A DNA stretch of 64,000 nt. Origin: Gracilaria domingensis (Eukaryota; Rhodophyta; Florideophyceae; Gracilariales; Gracilariaceae). The stretch is taken from assembly GCA_022539475.1 (NCBI GenBank), contig VCMS01000024.1:186001-250000 (forward strand), written 5' to 3'. Shown here in pieces: positions 36,667 through 64,000 of the stretch; the first letter of the stretch is position 1; each line of letters opens with the position of its first letter. The translations under genes were made by a program, and so were the position numbers. Below the pieces are notes generated by a model. It saw only the letters and a list, made by a program, of their open reading frames with translations, searched no databases and was not told the DNA's origin.

Positions 36667-38877
36667 TTAATTTGGGCCACCCACATCTTCCAAACCAGCT
36701 TCGCTCGCCAAATCCACGACACCGACAACCAATAACGCCGCGAACTGATACGAACGAATTGACACCTTGGTCTTACCGCTTGAAGATCCTCCCGTTTGCT
36801 TCATACGCTCTCGAACACCTAACGCCACTTTTCTTCCCAAAGCTTGCGCAAACTTTCGAGCGTCTGTTTCTTTACGCTTTCGTTCGGCAGCGCTTTGCCG
36901 TTGAAGCCTACGACGTACAGCCTCCAACCGCCTCTTTTTCTGCTCTTGCTCTCGAACTCTCTGCTCTTCCTCGCGCTTCCGCTTTCTCTCTGCAGCTGCT
37001 TCTTGCGCTTGAAGGCCAAAACGTTCCCGTTCTTCTGCTTTCTTTGACTGTTCCGCAGCCTTCTCTTTTTGCTGTTGTAACGCCTCTCGCTCCTTCTCTC
37101 TCCGCAAGCGAAGTTCTTCACCATGTGTTAACCATTGTGCGGGCTGCCCTGCATCCATGAGTACCCGCGGTTGTAAATTACGGACAGTGTACGCCCCGAC
37201 GTTTGCTCCTGGAGGACTGACAGTGTTCATGAGAATTGAATTGACTGTCTCATTTTGGTTCAGTATCGTGGTAAGAGCTTTGATTTTGGTAGAGTACCCA
37301 TCCTTATTATGAAAAACCTGGGCGAGTTCCATGTAGGTGCTCTTATCTGACTGCCTTATTCGCACCAAACACAATGTACTGTCCTCACCGGCATTAATCA
37401 ATTTGTCCTCTTCCTTCTTAACTAATTCTCTTTTGGTATCTTCCTCTGTTCTGAATTGTTCGGGGAACGTCCTGCAGAACGGGAATGTTCCTGTCTTTCC
37501 AAACGAGTGCTTTATGTCCTCTTCTGTGATGCACTCATGTGCGTAAACTGCGCAAGCTAAATTAAAGCTGACCTTCGTTGTATCTATATGACATTGGCGA
37601 CAAAATTCGTCTCGAAGAACGCGCATATTCTTCTGAAATCCTTGGTTAATCTTCTGGTCGCACGGTTGCAGAAAGTGCGATGTATTTGCGGCGTTTACGG
37701 CCGCTTCAATATAGCGCTTCATACAGTAATCAACCCACTCTGGATCTTTGCGGGACGAATGCCCATCAAGAAAGAGAAGAAAGGGCGTTTTGCTCTCAAC
37801 AAACCGCCTAGCAGTGTGCTCGACATGTTTAACAAAAGAGGACATTAGGGGTCCTTGCATTGACCCATTGTCGGAGACCTTGATCACTCCGTCTTCTGGG
37901 AACCAACCGGGTTTGGTGAATCGTTTGATAATTCCCGTTGGCGGCGCAGAGAAGGAGCCCTCTACTGGAGCCCACCAATCGCTAGACTTTCGTTTCGCAG
38001 CCACGATGAAATATGGCGGCGCTTTCCGTCCTGCTGCGGAAGCCGCAATGACGCAGGTTATATGTTTGGAGATGCCATAAGTGGATTTCACACGGCGATG
38101 TCCTCCGTTCTTGGTGGAAGAAGAGTAGAATACCTTGATGTGCTTTCCAAAGATGTTGTCAATTCCGGTCTCATCCATATTCCACATTCTATTTGCGTCC
38201 GATAAGATTCCTTCATGAAGCTTTCCAATTCTTTCGAGGACAGCAAAGAAGGTCTCGACGTGGTTATAAGATTGTGCGGCAAGTTTTGCTTGCTCCCTGT
38301 TTTCTATATGCTTGTACGCTATTTCGCGGTTAGTAGCTCTGTAGGAACGTATTGCGTCATCGCCTGGAACTCCTGGTTTGAATCCTTTGCGTCCGTCAGC
38401 TGCAATTCTACTGAGAAGATGTTTAAACGTAAAATGGTCCACCGCAAATCCTCGTTCAGCCGCTACGATCAGTCTTTGGTTAATCAATGTGCGCTCCTCT
38501 GGTGTAATGATAGCACGACGACCAGGTCGTACGGAGGCGTTTACAAGTGATTCGAGGGCTGGGTCGTTGGAAAGAATCGCTTTGTGAATGCGGCCAACGG
38601 TTGTGCGGCTGACACCGGTCATTCGAGAAACTGCGCGAACACCGCGACCCTCTTGCGAGAGCTGCATAGCTGCAGTGCGGTTGATGGCATCCTGAGACTG
38701 TTTATCAAGACGGGTTTTGTAGTTAACGGCTTGTCGCCGCATTGAGAGTGGCATACTGAGCACGTGCTCAGTATGCCCATTGCATTGTAACGGTGGCTGT
38801 CGTGCACGACACTTGTTTAATGGGATCCTGTGCACTGTGCAACGATGCGGAAAGTGAAACTGGTAACTACGGAGCAT
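36667..38877 (-). CDS. pogo/Tigger-type DDE transposase
   Basis: The 736-residue frame is uninterrupted. Its N-terminal third carries helix-turn-helix-like DNA-binding segments (GVRAVSRMTGVSRTTVGRIH). The DDE domain shows the three acidic residues in family context: MWNMDETGI (D235), LLFLDGHSS (D371) and HFLQPCDQKIN (D407), a D-D spacing of 36 in the second pair, within the usual pogo range. The C-terminus is a long Glu/Lys/Arg/Gln-rich coiled coil followed by a short hydrophobic tail. The start may be further in: ATGs at 38754 and 38742 precede the conserved part, and the first of them lies in a perfect 26-bp palindrome. No stop or frameshift is seen, so the enzyme may still be active. Confidence 0.92.
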   Translation of the reverse strand: MLRSYQFHFPHRCTVHRIPLNKCRARQPPLQCNGHTEHVLSMPLSMRRQAVNYKTRLDKQSQDAINRTAAMQLSQEGRGVRAVSRMTGVSRTTVGRIHKAILSNDPALESLVNASVRPGRRAIITPEERTLINQRLIVAAERGFAVDHFTFKHLLSRIAADGRKGFKPGVPGDDAIRSYRATNREIAYKHIENREQAKLAAQSYNHVETFFAVLERIGKLHEGILSDANRMWNMDETGIDNIFGKHIKVFYSSSTKNGGHRRVKSTYGISKHITCVIAASAAGRKAPPYFIVAAKRKSSDWWAPVEGSFSAPPTGIIKRFTKPGWFPEDGVIKVSDNGSMQGPLMSSFVKHVEHTARRFVESKTPFLLFLDGHSSRKDPEWVDYCMKRYIEAAVNAANTSHFLQPCDQKINQGFQKNMRVLRDEFCRQCHIDTTKVSFNLACAVYAHECITEEDIKHSFGKTGTFPFCRTFPEQFRTEEDTKRELVKKEEDKLINAGEDSTLCLVRIRQSDKSTYMELAQVFHNKDGYSTKIKALTTILNQNETVNSILMNTVSPPGANVGAYTVRNLQPRVLMDAGQPAQWLTHGEELRLRREKEREALQQQKEKAAEQSKKAEERERFGLQAQEAAAERKRKREEEQRVREQEQKKRRLEAVRRRLQRQSAAERKRKETDARKFAQALGRKVALGVRERMKQTGGSSSGKTKVSIRSYQFAALLVVGVVDLASEAGLEDVGGPN
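38751..38776. repeat. perfect 26-bp palindrome at the transposase start
   Basis: The half-site GCATACTGAGCAC is followed at once by its exact reverse complement. The palindrome includes the candidate ATG at 38754-38752 and could be an operator-like transposase site or an RNA hairpin over the start codon. Confidence 0.85.
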
Positions 38878-39026
38878 CAAGAATGGCGCCAAAGTGCTCC
38901 ATCACGATTGTTTGCATCAGTTGCGGTGGGAGATGCGATGCGAAACTAGGTGTTTGGGTTGGAGAGAAAATGGCGGGAGTCGTCCCAAATAAACCCATGT
39001 CCCATAATTGCCCGTTCAGAGGGGTA

Positions 39027-53065: not shown

Positions 53066-55501
53066 TTACTGCACAGCATATACCGTACTTCCGCTTTCTT
53101 CGGGTCCTACAACTTGAGCAACATCTTCATCAATTTCAGATCCAGATGCTGTTGACCTTGTCTCCTCAAACCGATACTGTGACATTCTGTTAGCATCACC
53201 TGGAGTCATAGAGTCAACAGAAATAAAAGATCTTGAGCTGCACTCCATCCCCGAACCCGCAGAAGAGTCATTCAACCACGGAATCATCGCTGTTGAGTTA
53301 CGAGGAGTACCTCCAAAATTGCTGATCATGAAGGATCCCTGATCAAGAGGAAATTCCTGATCTGGTCCAACATCATCTTCAAATTCTAGGTCTGAATCAT
53401 AATCGGACGAGTGGTTTGTAGCCGTGCCGTTCCTCATGTTGGCGGCTACAACCGCGACGAGGGCAACAAGGGATATCAGCGCAATGCCACCAACAGCAAT
53501 TCCTGCGATCACACCAACGCCAAGACCGGAAGTTCCCATAGCGGCCAACGGTTCTGATCGTTCAGTCATCTCCCCTTCCAGAAACACTGAAACTCTGTTG
53601 AAATCATGTGCAGCAAGCGTTTCGTCCATGCGGCCGTCTCTAGTGAATTCTTTGTATTTCTCCAGCTTCGGTTCGCACTCCGCGCCAGCGTTACAATGAG
53701 TCTCTAAAAGCAGTTCAAAGGAAATGAAACCATCTTCGGGTGCATCTTTCTGAAGATCGACGTCGTTTCCGTTGGTCGTGGCAAACTTAGACAGCTGTGA
53801 GAGCTCAAAGATGTTGATTATTTCCCATTCATCAGGAGTGACAAACTCGTTTGAATTCAATCGAATCTCCTCCGCTAGTTCTTGAGCACCAAAAGAAGGG
53901 GGATGTCTCACAACCAGTGCAACTGACAACAATTCGGGTTCTCCAGATGGTATGGGAACCTCTGCCGATGGCTCCGGTTCTACGGAGAAATCAGGTTCTA
54001 CAATGTCCTCGAGATTGCCAAATGTACCAGAGATATCTGGGAACACTGCCACGGGCGAAACCTCTGCGGGGCTCTCTGCAACGTCACCTTCTACAGTGTC
54101 TTCGGGATTGCCAAATGCACCAGAGACATCTGAAAAGACTGCCACAGGGGAAACCTCTGTAATATCATCTTCAACGTTTGAGAGGTTTTCTTTGCTAGTG
54201 TTCAATGGCTTCGGTGGAGGCGAAATGCCTTCTGGGCCGTTCGCATCTAATATCTGTGGTGCTTCCAGTGTATCCGTATCATCACTGGTCAAATTAGAAG
54301 TTGGAACAGATGCATCCATATTCCATGTAGGTGTGGGAGAGATGGAGCCTTCGACAGAGCTCTCACTGCCGATCGGTTTTGGACGTCCTGGGCTCTTCGG
54401 TTGTAATCGCCCAATTGCAATGGCTCCTCCGTCTTCAGTGTCAAATTCAGGCTCAGACGAAGCCTCAATGGAAATGTCGTCGGAGGGTTCGGGTTCCTCT
54501 GATGAAAGGTTTTCCTTCGTTGGAAGCGGGCGGTCATCGTTCTTTTCCACTGATTCGTCGTCCGTGGAAGACGAAAACGAAGCTACTGGAGGTTCTCCTT
54601 TACTCCAAGTCACTGATGCAGTTACGGGGCCGGAAACAAACACTGATGCTCGTGGTTTGGATTTATCTGATTTATCGACTTCATTTCCGCCTGAGTCTTT
54701 GTAATTGTCATCTTCAGTACGCTCTTCGTCCTCTTCCAAAACTTCAGGAGAAGGGGTAACTAGAGGAGATAAGTCTGGCACAAGGCCAATTGGAGTTGTC
54801 TCTTCCTGATTATTTGCTGAGGTGTCTCCTTCTACGGCGTCACTGGCTTCAGTCGCCTCCGGAACATTTTCTACTTCGGGCTCTGGAGTTTTTGAGGGAG
54901 GCTCATCTGATAAGTTCTCGAAAAAGTTCCCCCAAGGATCTGAACTTGGCTCCGGAGATTTGATCGGTGTGACAAGTGCGGTGGCAAGCGAACCATCAGA
55001 ATTGAACCTTCGAAAATGGAATTTAGGACGTCGTCGCCCTCCGTTGTCCGACTCGCTCGCTTTTGGGGTGAAACCAGAAGAGTCATCCTGCACGCCGAAA
55101 TCAAAGGAAGTTGTAACAGCTGCAGTAGGTTCCGGTGTTTTTGTTGGAACTACTGGAAGCGCGGTAGGTGTAGCGCTTGCCCCTGACTCGTCCAAAGAAG
55201 TTGGTTGTGGAGGTATCTGCGTCGGTTCCGTGACGTGCAATCCATTCTCACCGCTTTCCTCCGAAGACGTTGCAGAGAGCTCAGGTACGCTGAAATCCAT
55301 CACCGTGAGTCTCTCTATCGGAGAAGAAAATTGGGAGTCAGAATGTGTAGATGCGACATTCTGTAGTGACTGGCGGAAATCTCCGCCAACCTTCGAAGAA
55401 TATGAGGTGCGCTTTAGTTGAAGACGGGGAGACGGATAGTCCTCCGCCCTGCCGCACGTCACCACTATACAGAGCAGCAAAAACGCAACGATGGACGGCA
55501 T
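53066..55501 (-). CDS. secreted-type acidic single-pass membrane protein
   Basis: The 811-residue protein starts with a clear signal peptide (MPSIVAFLLLCIVVTCGRA). Its extracellular part, about 600 residues, is very rich in Ser, Pro, Thr, Glu and Asp with many TPEP, SPEP and TKTPEP motifs and probably disordered, like an O-glycosylated stalk. It contains two 31-residue repeats (SPVAVFSDVSGAFGNPED and SPVAVFPDISGTFGNLED). A small ordered module with two cysteines (ETHCNAGAECEPK) precedes one membrane helix (about 660-690, GVIAGIAVGGIALISLVALV). The acidic cytosolic tail of about 120 residues carries many Ser and Tyr. It may be a cell-wall or matrix sensor or anchor. No family is recognised. 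Confidence 0.8.
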   Translation of the reverse strand: MPSIVAFLLLCIVVTCGRAEDYPSPRLQLKRTSYSSKVGGDFRQSLQNVASTHSDSQFSSPIERLTVMDFSVPELSATSSEESGENGLHVTEPTQIPPQPTSLDESGASATPTALPVVPTKTPEPTAAVTTSFDFGVQDDSSGFTPKASESDNGGRRRPKFHFRRFNSDGSLATALVTPIKSPEPSSDPWGNFFENLSDEPPSKTPEPEVENVPEATEASDAVEGDTSANNQEETTPIGLVPDLSPLVTPSPEVLEEDEERTEDDNYKDSGGNEVDKSDKSKPRASVFVSGPVTASVTWSKGEPPVASFSSSTDDESVEKNDDRPLPTKENLSSEEPEPSDDISIEASSEPEFDTEDGGAIAIGRLQPKSPGRPKPIGSESSVEGSISPTPTWNMDASVPTSNLTSDDTDTLEAPQILDANGPEGISPPPKPLNTSKENLSNVEDDITEVSPVAVFSDVSGAFGNPEDTVEGDVAESPAEVSPVAVFPDISGTFGNLEDIVEPDFSVEPEPSAEVPIPSGEPELLSVALVVRHPPSFGAQELAEEIRLNSNEFVTPDEWEIINIFELSQLSKFATTNGNDVDLQKDAPEDGFISFELLLETHCNAGAECEPKLEKYKEFTRDGRMDETLAAHDFNRVSVFLEGEMTERSEPLAAMGTSGLGVGVIAGIAVGGIALISLVALVAVVAANMRNGTATNHSSDYDSDLEFEDDVGPDQEFPLDQGSFMISNFGGTPRNSTAMIPWLNDSSAGSGMECSSRSFISVDSMTPGDANRMSQYRFEETRSTASGSEIDEDVAQVVGPEESGSTVYAVQ
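53997..54182. repeat. two 93-bp coding repeats in the acidic protein gene
   Basis: Blocks starting near 53997 and 54090 share TTGCCAAATG, ACCAGAGA and GAAACCTCTG in the same spacing. They encode the two 31-residue repeats. The identity is high but not complete, so this is an older in-frame duplication. Confidence 0.75.
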
Positions 55502-56947
55502 AATTGGACGCCCTAGGCGTGCGCCAGGACTTAGCTCTATAACAGGAGTTAATCTGCGTCACCCCGAAGACTCATAGGTTTGTAACGGAAGGTGTAGACT
55601 GCCAAGTATGTTCAGACTTAGGCTAAATGTCGAGTTGACGCGCTTATGGTGCGGATATTGCAAGCCTGGGTAGGAAGGAACAATATGGCCCCGCAGATGT
55701 GTAAGAAAAGCAGGTCTGCACCTGGTACCGTGCGAACGAGGTTGTCATGAGTGTACTGACGGCAATGTCATGCAAAGATATTGCATAAGTTGCGGAGCGC
55801 GTAAATGTACCCAGTCGGCACATTGAGATGTTCGGAGAGACATTTGAAGAAGTTATCGTGACGACTTTTGGAGTGAACAGTGCGTCCTACGGGGCAGGAC
55901 TTCCTGCGCTATACCCGAAGTAAACGGGACCATCAGTGTGTGAAAGTCACACATTGAGAATCGCTTCGCGAGAGAACTTTGAATTGTCAAGTTATCGTGC
56001 AACGATAATCGGGCCTTCAGCCAACGTCACATGTCAGCAACAGCACAAGTCACTTGCAGTGGCCAGAGCTATCCGAAAGAGTGACGCTCAGAGTGATCGG
56101 ATCTTCCTATAGAGTTCAAATATTGTACTGTCGTACATGTGATTCTACACAGTTGGCGGATGTAGCAAAGACTGCGTGATATATGCGGAGCATACCGTCA
56201 AAACTGTCGCAGTCATTCGATGGAGTCTATGCCCCCGTCAACATGTCGAGATAATGACACTTATACCTATGCTCTCCAAGGTAAATTACAGGGTACACTG
56301 TGACTTCCTCATGGTTCAGGCTAGGTCACTATGACTCATGGTATGCGAGCGCGATCATCGACAAGCAATAAAGCCAGCACAAGGCATAACCTGGTCATAA
56401 CTTTCGATCCACCAACAGTATGATATCCCTGCCAATAGCGCTATGGTAATACCGGGCATCCCGAAGAAAGAAAGGTAGGCTACTGTACGATGCAGTATTA
56501 CAACGGTACAAAGGTAGTAGCAGTAGCAAGAATGGAGCATCCGGGCCGGAACATCTCGTAGTCTGTACCTCGGAAGGCTGTAAGGATAGTATCCTTACTA
56601 AATGCACACCGCCAATACCTGTGTAGTACACAGTGTGTACTACACACTGTGCACAGTCTGTGTAGTACTCGTTTTTTCTTATCCCCGGAAGGAAGAACAA
56701 GCTTGCTTGTAGACTTCTGCATCCGTGCGCGTTGGCGCTTGCAAGCAGTGCAAACTGAAGCAAAATATACGTAGCAAAAGGCGTATCGTGTGCTGTGGGT
56801 AAGCTCAAACAAGACAGACATCACAGCTGCACAATGTAACGGGAACAGCGCTGGCACAATAACTAGTCTCAAACCATGTACAGATAACATTGTCCGAATT
56901 CTTTATATCGTATGCCGTTGAAACAGGCTCAGAATAAGCGTTGACAG
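55502..56947. other. intergenic region with hairpins, no gene seen
   Basis: About 1.4 kb between the acidic membrane-protein start and the asparagine synthetase stop. Short inverted repeats lie at 55936-55952 (TGTGTGA/TCACACA), 56580-56598 and 56620-56646. Overlapping frames on the minus strand near 56400-56890 lack any family features. Confidence 0.45.
56580..56646. repeat. two adjacent hairpins
   Basis: The first is GTAAGGAT-AGT-ATCCTTAC (56580-56598). The second, 56620-56646, has arms TGTGTAGTACA and TGTACTACACA around a 5-base loop. The GTAGTAC core is shared with the hairpin arms at 13593-13645. Confidence 0.75.
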
Positions 56948-58639
56948 TTAATGAGAAGTTCCGTTCATAGTCTTCACGTAAGCAGCGGCATGGAACTTCT
57001 GAGCACGTCCGCTTGGATCATCACTGTCTGACCACAGAGGAACCCATTTGCGAACGCCTTCTCGCAAACCTTGAGCGCTCTCATAGTTACCAAATATCTT
57101 TTCGAACAATGTACGATAATAATAAGCTTCCTTCGTGGCCGGAGGATCATGTTTGAAAGTCTGTGGCGCCTCTCGCATCATCTTATCCGTCACTTGATCA
57201 TCACAATAGTCCTTGAGTCCGTCGATCCAGTTGTAGCCCACGCCATCAGAGAATTGCTCCTTTGGTCTCATGAGAATATCATCCGGTAAGTATTCTTCTC
57301 CACAAAATTGTTCTGAGAAGGCATGGCGAATAGCCCACTTTTCAATGCGCTTTCCTTTGTCGGTGATCTTATCCTTTGCAGAGTAGCACATAGCGACGTC
57401 CAAGAAATCGCGATCGAGGAAGGGTACTCTGAGCTCCAAACTTTGAGCTGCTGTGGACCGATCACCGCGTAGAACGTCTGATGTATACAAAAGTTTGACA
57501 CGGCGAACGGTTTCCTCATAAAATGCCTGCTCAGAGTCTGCGTTGTGGAAATAAAGATAGCCACCAAACACTTCATCGGCTCCCTCTCCACTCAAGACAA
57601 CCTTGACATATTGCTTGACAAGCTTTGAAAGCAGGAACATTGGAGTGGATGCTCGAATAGTGGTGATGTCATAAGTCTCCAAATGGTACACTACCTGCTC
57701 CAATGCTCTGATTCCATCGTCCACAGTGAAGGTGAGAACATGATGCTCAGTTCCCAAAAAATCGGCTACTCTCTGGGCGGCTTTAAGATCGGGAGAACCC
57801 TCCAGACCACAGGAGAAACTGTGGAACACGTAGTCGGCTGGGAGCGCCTTCTTCACTATACTGGCGACAAGCGAGGAGTCCAATCCGCCAGAAATGAAGA
57901 CGCCAACCGGCACATCCGACATGAGACGGCGCACACAGGCCTGCTTGAAAGAGTCGTGCAGCTTCTGCAAGTCAACTCTTTCGGTAGGAAGCCACCCCGG
58001 GTTGTAAAACATGGGGTTGTAGTATGGAACGAAGTCAGACTGGTTCTCCTGACCTCGCTTGGCAGCGTAGTAGGTACCTGGAAGAAAGGGGGTGACCATA
58101 TGACAATGGTCAAGGATAGCCTTTGCCTCTGAAGCAATCCACAAGGCTCCATCCGAAGAGCGACCCAAATACATGGCTCGCACGCCTATGGGATCCCTGG
58201 CGGCGACGAACTGGTTGCGAGCAAGATCGACAACGACAGAAGCAAAAACGCCCTTGAGCGTGTTGTACAGGTGAGAGACATCGTGCGGAAAGAGTGAGGT
58301 GGCATACTTCTCGTAGAGGGGGGCAATGACCTCACAGTCGGAGTTGGATCGAAGCGTTTCCCTTCCGAGCTCGGTGGTGCGAAGCTGACGATGGTTGTAG
58401 ATCTCACCGTTGGTGACGGCCCAGACAGTGTCGTCGGAGATATGCATGGGCTGCGCTCCGTGCTCCGGGTCGTTAATCTGAAGACGGGCGAAGCCGAGTG
58501 CGGCCCAGCCGTCTTCGCTGACGAAAGTCTGCAGGTCGTCTGGACCACGGTGCTGCAGTTTGTTGGTGGCGGAGATGGTGAGCTGCACGAGCTCGTCGCG
58601 GGACAGGGAGCTACCGAGAACGGCGAAGATTCCGCACAT
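56948..58639 (-). CDS. asnB: asparagine synthetase (glutamine-hydrolysing)
   Basis: The enzyme makes asparagine from aspartate, ATP and glutamine amide in the cytosol. In 563 residues, the N-terminal glutaminase domain starts MCGIFAVLG, with Cys2 becoming the N-terminal nucleophile. It has the LQHRGPDD block, GEIYNHRQLR and NSDCEV. The synthetase domain has the ATP-binding PP-loop ISGGLDSSLV (about 249-258), the VVLSGEGADEVFGGY block and the SLELRVPFLDRDF block. The length matches plant and AsnB enzymes (about 550-590). Because the Met-Cys start is needed for catalysis, the start at 58639 is certain. A very GC-rich stretch begins directly upstream. Confidence 0.98.
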   Translation of the reverse strand: MCGIFAVLGSSLSRDELVQLTISATNKLQHRGPDDLQTFVSEDGWAALGFARLQINDPEHGAQPMHISDDTVWAVTNGEIYNHRQLRTTELGRETLRSNSDCEVIAPLYEKYATSLFPHDVSHLYNTLKGVFASVVVDLARNQFVAARDPIGVRAMYLGRSSDGALWIASEAKAILDHCHMVTPFLPGTYYAAKRGQENQSDFVPYYNPMFYNPGWLPTERVDLQKLHDSFKQACVRRLMSDVPVGVFISGGLDSSLVASIVKKALPADYVFHSFSCGLEGSPDLKAAQRVADFLGTEHHVLTFTVDDGIRALEQVVYHLETYDITTIRASTPMFLLSKLVKQYVKVVLSGEGADEVFGGYLYFHNADSEQAFYEETVRRVKLLYTSDVLRGDRSTAAQSLELRVPFLDRDFLDVAMCYSAKDKITDKGKRIEKWAIRHAFSEQFCGEEYLPDDILMRPKEQFSDGVGYNWIDGLKDYCDDQVTDKMMREAPQTFKHDPPATKEAYYYRTLFEKIFGNYESAQGLREGVRKWVPLWSDSDDPSGRAQKFHAAAYVKTMNGTSH

Positions 58640-59959
58640 GGTGTGGAGGAACGAGCAGCGACGGAATTGGGTGGGGGGTGGGGGGGGAGCGGCGCTGGGA
58701 CGGGGCAGGGCGGAGCGGTCGAAGCAGGCGCAGCGGGGAAGCAGGTGCTAGGGCAGCGGGGGAGGAAGGAGGCGCGAAGGCGAAGCAGCAGCGGCGGCGC
58801 GGGCGCGCCGGGAATTTGTAGGGCACGCGAGCAGAACGCGGTGGCGGAAACGAGGCGCCGGTTGGCGCGCTTGTGCGGTGGTGCTGAGCGTTCGCGCAAA
58901 GATCGGCGGCGCGAGCGGTGCGCCGTTGTGCCAGCGCCGGCGGCAAAAAAACAATTTCCGCATGGCACGCGCGCCAGCCGCCCTTTGATCTCGCCGCGTG
59001 GCCGACCACGTGCCGCCGCGCGCCGTGCCACGTGTTTCATGCCTTCGCCGTAGGGACTCCCTACTAGGGAGGTGCTCCCCGCCGCGCCGCCGCCGCGCGC
59101 CGCCATGCGCCGCCGCCGCGCGACATGCCCCGTCGCGCGCGAGGCGCGCGCGCCGCCGCGGCCACGCCGCGCCGCGCCGCGCCGCGCTTTCAACTTGCCT
59201 GCACCGCGCGCGCGGCGGCGCGCGGAGCTCCGTCGCGTCGTGGCCTTCTTCGGCTTCGGCGCGATGCGCCGCACAACAGCAATTTACACCAGTTATATGG
59301 AACAGCCAGTACTGCGGTACGTTTGGTCATCTCCCTTCATCTCGCCGCGCCGCGCCGCGCCGCGCCGTCCATCCGTTCCCGCTGCGATCACGTCTCACCT
59401 CTTGATTCTCTGCGCACGCAATGGCCCCCGTGTGATCGCGAGTGTTGCCCGCGTTTTCGAGGTGTGCCAGTTTCGCTGTTCCAAACTAATGCTGACTCAT
59501 ACTTATCGCCAGCTCATTTGCGTGTTGTTTCGCTCTTGACATTTTCCACCGCTGGGTGGCTTGTGCCACTCACTACGCAACAAACAGCTCGTCCCGTTCT
59601 GTGCACTGCTTTGCGTGCCATTGCCACGAGTGCACTCTGCTGTTCAGTTCAGTTTTATTGTCGCCCAGGTGCTGCCAAGTGAGAGCGACGCCCTTGCAGC
59701 ACTGGTGGGCACACTGTATCATATACAATACTATCTGAGGTTACAGGGTACTGTGCCCAAGTCCTTGCCGTCAGTTGCTTTTTATGCCTCTCCCGTCACA
59801 CGAGCCCCGATGTTTTGTCCCGATCACGATGCATGCGAGGAGCGCTCCGTAACGCTGGGTCTATCGCAACGCCCCAATCATGAGATTCTTTATCTTACGC
59901 TTGCTACATTTTTCGTGTGCCCGTGATCATCTTACTGGTACGCTGCGTTCATTTCGTTT
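58640..59959. other. GC-rich island upstream of asparagine synthetase
   Basis: About 58640-59260 consists largely of G and C with many CGCGCC runs; a second short block of CGCGCCGCGC repeats lies at about 59340-59370. The long Arg/Ala/Pro-rich frames on both strands here follow from base composition and are not called as genes. The remaining part to 59959 is ordinary and without a recognised gene. Confidence 0.6.
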
Positions 59960-61845
59960 TCACGTCGTTGCCTCTTTCTCGTCCGCAGGTTCTTTGGCTC
60001 GAACAATCAGCGGCGAGATAATCAGCGTGTACACAGAAATGTCCAGGAACAAAGACGTCAGTCCAAAAAGTCCGCGATAAACGCGGACCAAGAAACTGAC
60101 AGCTGCTTGCCTACAACTCTCGTCAAGAAGCTCAGCATGCTAACTTCCACCACGTAGACGTCAGCCTGCGTCTTCACGTCACCGCTTCGCACGTCCTCCA
60201 AGATCGTGTGAGATCGAAATGACTCATTCTTTCCTAGGATCAAGTTTCGTTCAAGTTGTAGGAATGCCATCTTCTCAGCGGGTACGACACCGAGCAATTC
60301 ATTCACCCCGTTTTCAGAAAAGTTTGTCATCACAAACAAATCCTGCCCTGGGTATAGCGCCCTGTCTTCTAAAACTTCTTCACCAATTTGAGCGCTCTTG
60401 CTTTGCGCAGCGAGTCCTGGCTGATCCGCAATCGATCCAAACTCTTTTGGGTAATAAGGCCCTGCCCCTGTTCTTTCCCATTCATACTTTTCACCATTGA
60501 ATCTATAACGAATTCCAGTGGACGTGGATGGATAAAAATACCCGGAGAACATGTACACATTGCATAGCATGTCCGCCTGATCTACCATTCTCATGTCTCT
60601 TGTTATGTTTTCATGTCCCCACCGATACCCTGGCCACAAGATGTAGCTATGAGCCTCATTTTGCGGATCGTACCCCCCGTAATCCAGGATTCCACGGAGC
60701 TTTAGGTCCATGTAATGGTGAACGAATACCTTTCGAAAGTATTCCGTGAGAAAGAGCGGCAAGCCGAAAGAAGACTTTCGACATCTCGACACTAGTGCAT
60801 TTTGAGAAAGCCGCACAACGAGTTTATTCGAAAACGCCCTGGCATTCGTCCCTTCTCTGCCTTCTAGGCGGAACATTTTGTCTCTTTCCAACGTCAAACA
60901 ATGAAAACATGAGGGCGATCGCGTGTTTTCAGATTCAAATTGTGCTGGGTCCATTTGATTCAATGCAATGCATCGACTCCCAGCAGCCGTGAACGACTCA
61001 ACTCTCACCTGCGGTAATGATCTTGTGTCTGGATAGACAATGCTCGCATTTAGACTCCCTCCCCGAATGATATCAAGCCATATCAAAGGCTGTCCTTGGT
61101 ATGGTCCATTTGGAAGGTCTGAAAATGGAGGCAGTTGTGTACCAGTGGTGCAAAAGTGTAGAGTTGGTAGCTCGACGGCGTCAGTTTTTTCAAATGCAAT
61201 TGTGCGGGCCAGTTCTTCTCTACTTCCCAAGAAGTCTTTCGTCACGAAAACCAACGAAATGATGAGACCAGTCAGTGCCATTAACCAAGCAGATACGGCT
61301 ATTATTCTTTTCTCTCTTGTGCTGGCTACCGATTGAAGATAATTTGAAAGACTCCACTTGAATGGTGAACCGCGAGACTCATATATGCCTGGAAACGATT
61401 TTGATCTTCCACCTTCACGTAGATAGGGCTCGGACAGCCTTGATGCTGCACTGGGAAACTTCTGTGCACCATTCTTGGTACGAGTTGAGGAAGGTCTGCG
61501 AACTAGTGACGAACGTCTCATGAATGTCGTATCTTCTTTATGCAACGCTTTGGTTACCTCAGCCGCCGTGAACATATGGCCCTCTTCATCAACAGCACAA
61601 CTGGCTGGAAGGAGGTCGGTAGCATAGAAGTCGTCAGTATCATCCGTTCCTCGCTCTGCCGCTTGCCTGGCAGCTTCCACATGGGTGTCAAGCTCTTCAA
61701 CAGAGTTTTCTATAGCGAAGAAGAAACCATCTACATCATCCGTTGCAAGCTCTTTGAATATGGCGTTTAGTCTGCTCTGCGTTTTGGTTTGTTCCTCGGC
61801 GGTTTTGTCCAGATGCAAACCATCTTTCTTTCCGCGGAAACTCAT
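59960..61845 (-). CDS. two-membrane-segment protein resembling DEG/ENaC channels (copy 1)
   Basis: DEG/ENaC/ASIC proteins are trimeric cation channels with cytosolic ends, two membrane helices and a large Cys-rich outer domain. Here about 180 cytosolic residues lead to TM1 (181-202, IIAVSAWLMALTGLIISLVF). Then follow VELPTLHFC (224-232), where ASIC/ENaC have FPAVTLC, and a large loop with CFHC, CNVYMFSGYFYPS and GAGPYY, all shared with the neighbouring copy. The direct frame stops at 60058 without a second helix. A 38-bp GTGAAG...TAG intron (60140-60177) would instead join to a frame ending at 59960 that holds YRGLFGLTSLFLDISVYTLI, much like the GxxGLFLG-type TM2. That gives about 615 residues. 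The splice model is inferred; a one-base indel is the alternative. The start is the first ATG. Confidence 0.7.
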
Positions 61846-62440
61846 ATTCGCAAGCAAAATGTAAGTTTGTTTCAAAGTAGTGGATAACTTCTTGAGAAGG
61901 ACGACTGTTATCTAGGCAAGAGCATATCAGTTTGACAAGTAGCAATGGGATACTTTGCTCTTCGAAAATAACGTCTTTCAATATGGCGAAGTTGCACATA
62001 AGAACCGTCTTACAAGTTATACGTCCTGATTCAATTGCACATCGCATTACGTGAGGAACATGGCTCCCAAATGCATTTTGGTTCATTCTTCTTAAAAAGG
62101 TTGTTTCGTGGCGTCCCGACTATGCCTCCTCAGCCAGAATTATTTCGCTAGCTTCATCATATGTACGCATTTTCTCTCATTTCGAAAGTCTTACGCTCCC
62201 AGACTGACGTGCAAAAAGAGGCATCTTGCCGATGGTGTCGTGGACGCTCTATGCCGGACGATACTTAAATACTGCCCACTGTGAACAACTTCTCTCTCTC
62301 TATCTCTCTACGTTTAGCTACTAACATTGTGGGCCTAGATCACTATATCTGCAAGATAAATATTCATATGAGAGCAAAGAAGCTTCTCTGACTTGTCTGC
62401 AAACTTCAGTCGAGTGAATTGAGCCTTGTAACTTTTGCCA
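61846..62440. promoter_or_regulatory. divergent promoter between the two channel-like paralogues
   Basis: About 595 bases separate the two ATGs of a head-to-head paralogue pair. A pyrimidine tract with repeated TCTC lies near 62291-62308. No coding sequence is recognised. Any shared regulation of the pair would act here. Confidence 0.45.
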
Positions 62441-64000
62441 ATGCAGAAACACGAAAAAGAAGAAGTGTTAGATTCTATATCCAAGAAGTTGTTCTTTGCG
62501 GAAAAGGACTACAATGCTAGAAATCTGGAACTGCAAAGCTTTAAAAGAGTGGTGAACGTACTTACTAAGCTGGGAGAGACACGGAAAGAGAAGTTCAAGA
62601 ACGGAGAGGATATTACAATCCTCGATGAGTTTTTGGCCGACAATCGAATGCGTCTCGGACATTTACTTTCAACTCCTCCTGCGGAGGGCGAAGGATACAA
62701 CGTTGACTTTGATGCGTGGGTCGCAGACATCGAGAATGACATACGAGCGCGAGATCCTTTGATGTTGTCCTTTGACTCTACGGATGGAGAGGGATTTCCC
62801 AAGGCCACCTCATCTCGTGCTATTGAAGATTCGCAGTCACTATCTAGCAAGGGGGGGACACTGCTCACAATTCTGAAGACTAACGGAAAACTCTCTCCAA
62901 AGGTCGGAAATCAGGAATCTTCTGAAGCTGTAGAACAGAGTTTCTTTTGTCTCACAACCGCAGCTTGGGTTTTCGCAGTCTTTGGAATGATGGTAACTAT
63001 CGGTTTTCTTGCTGCAGATTTCTGGTACGCACAGAAGCATGTTGCTATCCATGTAGAACGATCGAAGCAACAACCACAGGAGCTTCCAGCCATAACGATA
63101 TGCAGTTTCGTTCCTAATGTTCCGAGCTTCTCAAACTATCCATCATCAGAATATCCAGGATTGCCAATCTTTGGAATCCAACGGCTCACCCGATACAACA
63201 AATCTACGTCGTTGCTTGTCTCCGACAAAACATATCCGGATATTTTGGCCACATCATCAAAGTCAGAAGTGGAGGATGTACTCCTTTCTCATGACCTGTC
63301 TCAATGTAGTGGCAATGAAGGATTCGATGTGGAGCGAGAAATGAAAGGTTTGATACTGGGCAATGACCTTGGCATTCAAAACAACGAGAACGAAGAAAGA
63401 TGCTACCACTGCATACGATTGGGACTTAAATCACGAATTAAGCTCTATCCCCCACCAAGTGAGGAAGATGCGATTCTCCCGCCAGCAATAAATATGAAAC
63501 TCTATCGAACCAAGCTACTTGCTGCCTGTCGGACGGAGTACCACAGGAGAAACATCATGGTCGTATCTCTTTTTGTAGACGAAATTCAGAAGTACGCCGA
63601 ACAACTCGGTGGACAGGGTGTTCTTGATTTTAATAATGAGGATGTAGAGAAAGCTTTTGGAGTGGACTGGTTTCGAGCTGATAGTCATCGTTTTTTCGAC
63701 TTTAGCTGCAATGTCTACTTTTTCTCAGGTTTTTTCTACCCGTCTAGAGACAACGCCGACATCTCATATCGGTTCGATGGTAGCACTGAAGAGCGGTGGG
63801 TGAAGACCGGATCTGGACCATACTATTCGGCATACACCTGGAGCTCTAATGCTGCTGATATAAACGGTCCCAATCGTGTCGCCATCGAAAAAGACTTCTT
63901 TACACCTGATGCTCTCGAACTCTATGTCGAAGAAGCGAAAGGTGTCAATATTACAGCAGCAGTGTCCCCAAGCACAAAGGTATCCGCAATTGAGGCCGCA
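62441..64000 (+). CDS. two-membrane-segment protein resembling DEG/ENaC channels (copy 2, cut by window edge)
   Basis: The frame opens at ATG 62441, with TAA in frame just upstream, and stays open to the window end: 520 residues without a stop. About 165 polar cytosolic residues precede TM1 (about 172-193, TTAAWVFAVFGMMVTIGFLA). Then come ELPAITIC, close to the FPAVTIC signature after TM1 in DEG/ENaC channels, and a long outer loop. CYHC, FSCNVYFFSGFFYPS, ISYRFDG and KTGSGPYY match copy 1 in the same order. The second membrane helix would lie beyond the edge. The two copies are diverged paralogues facing away from each other. An ion-channel role is inferred from architecture and one motif, not proven. 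Confidence 0.75.
   Translation, partial: MQKHEKEEVLDSISKKLFFAEKDYNARNLELQSFKRVVNVLTKLGETRKEKFKNGEDITILDEFLADNRMRLGHLLSTPPAEGEGYNVDFDAWVADIENDIRARDPLMLSFDSTDGEGFPKATSSRAIEDSQSLSSKGGTLLTILKTNGKLSPKVGNQESSEAVEQSFFCLTTAAWVFAVFGMMVTIGFLAADFWYAQKHVAIHVERSKQQPQELPAITICSFVPNVPSFSNYPSSEYPGLPIFGIQRLTRYNKSTSLLVSDKTYPDILATSSKSEVEDVLLSHDLSQCSGNEGFDVEREMKGLILGNDLGIQNNENEERCYHCIRLGLKSRIKLYPPPSEEDAILPPAINMKLYRTKLLAACRTEYHRRNIMVVSLFVDEIQKYAEQLGGQGVLDFNNEDVEKAFGVDWFRADSHRFFDFSCNVYFFSGFFYPSRDNADISYRFDGSTEERWVKTGSGPYYSAYTWSSNAADINGPNRVAIEKDFFTPDALELYVEEAKGVNITAAVSPSTKVSAIEAA

Follow-up and report, generated by a model that had tools for sequence, protein, structure and literature searches.

Divergent DEG/ENaC-like channel subunits predicted from a probable red-algal nuclear genome

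The 64,000-base window analysed here (bases 186001-250000 of contig C24 in a 77.9-Mb assembly) carries near its end two genes on opposite strands, copy 1 and copy 2. Together with a third paralogue on another contig (copy 3, contig C189), these are probably red-algal nuclear genes for divergent channel subunits that belong to the DEG/ENaC (PF00858) superfamily. We put the probability of this assignment, which is made from sequence, at about 0.78. DEG/ENaC channels are trimers that conduct monovalent cations, are voltage-independent and are often amiloride-sensitive, and the animal members are sodium channels that sense touch, acid and neuropeptides. An original prediction had placed the two window genes in this family. 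The sequence evidence supports the assignment for copies 2 and 3, whereas copy 1 alone gives no signal, and a weak one when it is read through a change of frame.

The HMMER search with PF00858 (DEG/ENaC, ASC) that the original prediction had proposed placed copy 2 above the curated cut-off for the family. In hmmscan searches of 24,736 Pfam families, reported up to an expectation value (E) of 10, whole copy 2 scored 31.1 bits (E 1.7e-7; cut-off 23.6 bits), with both ends of the profile matched in order, and this whole-length match is not at chance level. The absence of any PF00858 signal, which the original prediction had named first among its grounds for refutation, was thus not observed. Whole copy 3 fell just below the cut-off (22.8 bits, E 5.7e-5), and PF00858 was the sole family reported for either protein. 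With the cytosolic part trimmed, copy 2 (32.1 bits) and copy 3 (23.8 bits) both exceeded the cut-off. The two ends of copy 2 also matched PF00858 separately: the end with the first transmembrane helix (TM1) over profile positions 21-78 (18.1 bits, E 0.0014), and the end with the second (TM2) over positions 388-450 (19.3 bits, E 0.00066). The TM1 end of copy 3 matched positions 11-75 (17.4 bits, E 0.0024), alongside two weaker lines for domains of unknown function. Of ten control sequences prepared, five were run, two of them reversed and three shuffled locally, and none matched PF00858.

The hydropathy of the proteins fits the topology of the family. Copies 2 and 3 each showed peaks for both TM1 and TM2, with an extra peak of 1.39 at residues 400-418 of copy 3. 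Between the two hydrophobic helices lies an ectodomain, about 390 residues long, that is complete in these two copies. In copy 1 there was a peak for TM1 and a weak one of 1.25 at residue 561; TM2 was seen only across the frame change described below. The motif ELPxxxxC that had been noted after TM1 was indeed found in both window proteins (ELPTLHFC in copy 1, ELPAITIC in copy 2), and KVPVIHLC occupies the same place in copy 3. From the Trp of TM1 to the Cys of this FPAVTxC-like motif there are 45 residues in all three proteins, and 47 in ASIC1. The blocks CxHC, CNVYxFSGxFYPS and GxGPYY, also noted earlier, are common to copies 1 and 2; their counterparts in copy 3 are CYSC and CNIYFFSGFFFPV, without GxGPYY. 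There are six ectodomain cysteines per protein, five of them in common columns in all three, whereas the alignment pairs the sixth of copy 1 with that of copy 2 only.

In TM2, copies 2 and 3 share the pore motif GLFTGIC, of the family type GLFxGxS, and the filter position reads GIC. The corresponding motif of copy 1, SLFLDIS, departs from the family type by a change of Gly to Asp at the filter, which reads DIS. An outer-TM2 Asp is invariant in the three proteins (D586 of copy 2) and aligns with Asp389 of BRTNaC1 and with the Asp of GDIGG in ASIC1. Eight residues past the filter Gly, where ASIC1 has Glu, copies 2 and 3 have Val.

Two C-terminal searches of the PDB (177,635 distinct sequences, hits up to E 10), in which 32 sequences (about 2 in 10,000) belong to DEG/ENaC, pointed to the same family. 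A two-sequence C-terminal profile built from copies 2 and 3 gave three hits, all to BRTNaC1 (E about 0.9), and the alignment was in the pore register, with GLFLGICILSVI over the algal GLFTGIC. BRTNaC1 also accounted for three of the four hits of the copy 3 tail alone; over both searches, its matches had E 0.9-1.3. Two altered tails, one reversed and one shuffled, gave six hits, of which none was to a DEG/ENaC protein.

The head-to-head arrangement that had been claimed for the window pair was borne out, with frames on opposite strands and starts 595 bp apart (Table 1). As read from its open reading frame, copy 1 runs on the minus strand from an ATG at 61845 to a stop codon at 60058-60060 (595 residues). 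Copy 2, on the plus strand, starts with an ATG at 62441 and is a single open frame of 620 residues with its own TM2, ending shortly after this second hydrophobic helix; the 303 bases beyond the end of the window complete it, stop codon included. Both genes are apparently intron-free. The third paralogue, which lies outside the window, encodes 621 residues from its first ATG.

Protein searches of the same assembly with copy 1 and with copy 2 each gave three matches: the query itself, the other copy and the C189 gene. The matches between paralogues had E from 4.8e-18 to 7.6e-39. With copy 3 as query, the same three genes were found together with five further matches (E 0.1-5), which we discarded as chance or repeat. 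Identity to copy 2 was 24% for copy 1 and 30% for copy 3. Copy 2 scored 137 bits against the C189 gene (89 bits for the part in the window) and 81 bits against copy 1 (70 bits for the part in the window). A recent duplication that gave rise to copies 1 and 2 was therefore rejected, given their low identity (24%) and the better score of copy 2 with the C189 gene than with copy 1. For each of the three genes, the codon-use score was higher than that of every one of 200 randomised synonymous versions. The length of the three frames (about 600 residues), the E of the matches between them and their codon-use scores argue against chance frames.

These five discarded matches fall at 198-bp places in the assembly (C83:13703, C232:11490, C10:372961, C20:168677 and C50:161078). 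All are weak in the same way (32-33% identity, E 0.1-5) and cover residues 464-529 of the C189 protein; the places are perhaps one repeated element.

Copy 1 calls for separate treatment. Its frame stops at SWSAFIADFLD, within the second helix. Changing the frame by one base within the run of five T residues (T5) at 60065-60069 yields FGLTSLFLDISVYTLIISP, which aligns without gaps with TM2 of both paralogues. The alignment score of the piece in the other frame (FGLTSLFLDISVYTLIISPLIV) was reached by none of 1000 shuffles against copy 3 and by one of 1000 against copy 2. The original prediction had suggested that copy 1 can be spliced to GLFGLTSLFLDI, a helix similar to the pore helix of the family. 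We rejected an intron, because shifting the frame by one base within the T5 run is enough to align the tail without gaps, and the alignment with the paralogues gives SLFLDIS in place of GLFGLTS as the pore motif. Read through the frame change, copy 1 matched PF00858 and no other family, over profile positions 400-450, with a score below the cut-off (16.3 bits, E 0.0051).

The frame change could be a slip in the assembly, a real lesion or, less likely, a site of frameshifting. If it is a lesion, copy 1 could be a decaying pseudogene, which would leave copy 2 and the C189 gene as the only working channels; we regard this as a real prospect, though at less than even chances. It would account for a frame change within TM2, for an Asp at the first filter position and for the lack of a PF00858 match unless the frame change is read through. 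On the other hand, the 595 codons upstream of the frame change are all open, the tail past it is still TM2-like up to a normal stop codon, and a homopolymer such as this is a kind of site at which assemblies may slip.

Table 1. Features of the gene pair, in window coordinates.
Feature	Position	Strand	Description
Copy 1	60061..61845	minus	595-aa frame: N-terminal region, TM1, ectodomain, first part of TM2
Copy 1 TM1	61249..61305	minus	Residues 181-199, hydropathy peak 2.38
Copy 1 ELPTLHFC	61150..61173	minus	FPAVTxC equivalent, 45 residues beyond TM1 Trp
Copy 1 CNVYMFSGYFYPS block, common to paralogues	60526..60564	minus	
Copy 1 T5 run, frame changes by one base	60065..60069	minus	
Copy 1 remainder in other frame, FGLTSLFLDISVYTLIISPLIV... 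(TM2) to stop codon	59960..60067	minus	
Spacer between copy 1 and copy 2 start codons	61846..62440	.	595 bp, head-to-head
Copy 2	62441..64000, on to C24:250303 (L001 5303)	plus	520/620 aa in window; TM2 PEFVIDVFEFIGLFTGICIFTLIVAP
Copy 2 TM1	62960..63016	plus	Residues 174-192, hydropathy peak 2.09
Copy 2 ELPAITIC	63080..63103	plus	FPAVTxC equivalent
Copy 2 CNVYFFSGFFYPS block with last ectodomain cysteine	63707..63745	plus	

Several results weigh against membership of the DEG/ENaC family. In hmmscan, copy 1 alone did not match PF00858, whether whole, trimmed or as its TM1 end, and neither did the TM2 end of copy 3. One reversed control matched LUC7 with 17 bits (E 0.0052); the read-through match of copy 1 is therefore close to what chance can give for some family, as are, to a lesser degree, the matches of single ends. 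A profile search of the whole genome with PF00858 missed all three genes, and reported the family in its Thermotoga maritima control. In the PDB, whole-length searches (with copy 2, with copy 3 and with a profile of all three paralogues) returned no DEG/ENaC protein, the copy 2 tail alone had no hit, and all six hits of a profile of the TM1 end were unrelated. As the altered tails scored equally well (E 0.19-1.8, with ribosomal and other unrelated proteins), the matches to BRTNaC1 have weight only in the identity of the family and in the register. An hhalign comparison with ASIC1 gave a probability of 0.5%, though the register of TM2 was right, and AlphaFold models of the window proteins, made from two-row alignments only, had mean predicted local distance difference test (pLDDT) scores of 29.1 and 37.8, too low for a judgement on the palm, beta-ball, finger and thumb fold of the family. 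Searches of viral and prokaryotic contigs with two short patterns each gave 210 and 71 pattern matches, among which no relative was confirmed, and the three tblastn matches of copy 2 in phages (E 2-8) were taken as chance.

Features common in the family are also missing. There is no His-Gly (HG) motif, which would stand before TM1, anywhere in the three proteins, and no cysteine in any of them from CN[VI]Y to TM2 (in copy 1, to the end of the frame). Chicken ASIC1 (PDB 2qts), by contrast, has 11 cysteines between CYTFN and GLFIGAS, and BRTNaC1 has at least the disulfides C273-C341, C282-C337 and C299-C311 before TM2, as given in the excerpted text of PMC12804983. In the finger and thumb region, as in the large middle part of the ectodomain, no similarity to the family was detectable, and the thumb cysteines are absent. 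A scan of NCBIfam gave no match for copies 1 and 2 and one irrelevant line of 12.4 bits for copy 3.

These results could be taken to mean that the genes encode red-algal surface proteins with two helices, for example receptors or adhesins, that are unrelated to DEG/ENaC and match PF00858 by chance in the helices and their flanks. In support of this, the proteins resemble the profile at their two ends only, with profile positions 104-387 unaligned, the HG motif and the thumb cysteines are lacking, and one control matched a different family at E 0.0052. An antisense frame can, moreover, reach 25.3 bits at the C-terminal end of PF00858. This frame is nevertheless rejected by hmmscan, which found PF00858 in none of the five controls, and chance matches would not readily explain why the ends of copy 2 match the profile separately and in order, why three diverged paralogues keep an equal spacing from TM1 to Cys, or why retrieval from the PDB gives the same family in the same register. 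We therefore consider unrelated surface proteins improbable.

The antisense frame came from the genome profile search, which found PF00858 in none of five other genomes. Among 14 genomes in the family of a Thermotogaceae metagenome-assembled genome it gave two PF00858 matches, one of them above the cut-off at 25.3 bits, and this also counts against reliance on the profile. The 25.3-bit match sits in the antisense frame, in which hmmscan found nothing, opposite an open reading frame that looks ThiI-like. Since this frame is scored by the genome search but rejected by hmmscan, we treated the hmmscan results as the stricter ones. The frame itself (L091 1501-1884, plus strand) contains the stretch VGLFGLHLESSVISFF; it is an apparent chance match to PF00858 and could mislead surveys of the family.

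That the host is an alga, as had been supposed, was supported by matches to the phycobilisome linker family PF00427. These were found in 14 places, four on contig C680 and ten on eight other contigs. C680 is 179.8 kb long, has three of its linker matches within one 878-residue frame and was taken as plastid. Nuclear phycobilisome linkers are a mark of red algae, and the presence of linkers on many contigs besides C680 therefore points to a red-algal host; a glaucophyte may formally be considered beside it.

The genes might also be true DEG/ENaC relatives but no old algal inheritance, having been acquired horizontally from an animal or protist donor or belonging to contaminating DNA. The family is patchily distributed, and the authors of PMC10507113, in the excerpted text, weigh gene loss against lateral transfer. 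However, the contigs that bear the genes are 316 and 135 kb long and have ordinary neighbours. By Pfam these are asparagine synthase, a class-III aminotransferase (presumably GSA-type), GT2, EMC1, DER1 and PMT for the gene pair, and a uridine kinase/UPRTase beside the C189 gene. Codon use is neighbour-like: the scores of all three genes were inside the range of 10 reference frames (0.003-0.041, scored against a table that includes the reference frames themselves; several of their names are presumed), with copy 3 towards its lower limit. The G+C content at third codon positions was 0.466 for copy 1 and 0.438 for copy 2, which fit the references (0.400-0.578), and 0.590 for copy 3, just over the highest of them. 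On contig size, neighbours and codon use, contamination was rejected as most likely not the source. Identity to copy 2 is no higher than 24-30% among the paralogues, so any transfer before they split would be old. Overall, we think an origin by transfer or contamination unlikely.

If the three proteins are DEG/ENaC subunits, as we favour, their nearest known counterpart in our searches is BRTNaC1 (broad-range thermal receptor 1 of a centipede; PDB 8ymr/8ymw/8ymx), the only family retrieved by the algal C-terminal profile. It has GLFLGIC, with the same GIC filter as copies 2 and 3, and its Asp389, which corresponds to the invariant algal Asp, is part of the selectivity filter according to the excerpted text of PMC12804983. 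It differs in length (431 residues, compared to about 620 in the algal proteins), and the similarity was found at the TM2 end only. ASIC1 resembles the algal proteins in its two-helix topology, in a TM1 Trp followed by FPAVTxC and in GLFxGxx in TM2. It differs in its filter, GAS compared to the algal GIC or DIS, and in its N-terminus, that of the algal proteins being about 170-180 residues long before TM1. We also take ASIC1 to carry the HG motif. This motif is not strictly defining, since PDPNaC1 of a centipede (PDB 9jf7) is described in the excerpted text of PMC12714832 as a proven homotrimeric member without a canonical HG. PDPNaC1 differs from the algal proteins in its length (421 residues) and its place in animal sensory neurons, and was not retrieved by the algal queries. 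Judged from their sequences, then, the algal genes match the profile and lack two common features of the family, HG and the thumb disulfides.

What would such proteins do? With a predicted N-in orientation, both termini would be cytosolic. The subunits, from a single paralogue or from more than one, would assemble in threes with their TM2 helices lining the pore, and the finger and thumb would have been rebuilt without the disulfide ladder. An external signal (acid, a change in salt or osmotic strength, touch or a released peptide) would move the ectodomain and open the channel; for a seaweed, the natural ones to consider are pH, osmotic change and wounding. Once open, the channel would let monovalent cations through independently of voltage. 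Most of them would be Na+ coming in from the sea water, which would depolarise the cell. Ordinary cation conduction is plausible, given that copies 2 and 3 share GIC with BRTNaC1 and that all three proteins keep the Asp. Selectivity for Na+ is uncertain because of the filter Asp of copy 1 and the Val of copies 2 and 3 at the place of the ASIC1 Glu. Copy 1, given its DIS filter, may be a modified or inactive subunit.

Other features of the window lie apart from the channel genes. A GC-rich tract of the CGCCGCG type at 58640-59400 lies upstream of the asparagine synthase gene, and the bin 58001-60000 has 61.6% GC, compared to 43-53% in the other bins. A 744-residue frame at 36667-38901 (minus strand) has a DDE_1 transposase domain and a helix-turn-helix, and is presumably a pogo/Tigger-like element. 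An 830-residue frame at 53066-55558 (minus strand) has, by eye, a hydrophobic start, a long region rich in S, P and E and a hydrophobic stretch near the C-terminus; it matched no Pfam family at E 0.001.

Outside animals, DEG/ENaC homologues have been described in Cafeteria, Tunicaraptor and a Symbiodinium (PMC10507113). In the excerpted text of that study, NCBI BLASTp searches with animal queries covered Rhodophyta, with holozoans, one alveolate and one stramenopile as the only sources of candidates, and the choice between gene loss and lateral transfer is left undecided. Genes as diverged as those described here would probably escape such a survey: the Cafeteria, Tunicaraptor and Symbiodinium members are detectable by BLASTp, and the algal proteins are, going by the description of those members, probably further away. 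Among the literature matches listed, as titles and starts of abstracts, there was no report of a red-algal DEG/ENaC, and the excerpted parts of PMC13183375 and PMC7935092 make no mention of algal members. An automatic PF00858 label for such proteins may already stand in databases such as InterPro.

Tentatively, and a little short of an even bet, we suggest that DEG/ENaC predates animals and reaches Archaeplastida. Red algae would then keep a diverged branch whose rebuilt, cysteine-poor ectodomain gates a current of Na+ or other cations in response to an external stimulus, and the animal and protist members would be survivors of an early eukaryotic family that goes unseen at the level of BLAST. 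Red-algal members, if true, would add Archaeplastida to the range of a channel family central to animal sensing and make loss and transfer in its history testable by a tree. They would also give a seaweed a candidate sensory channel permeable to Na+.

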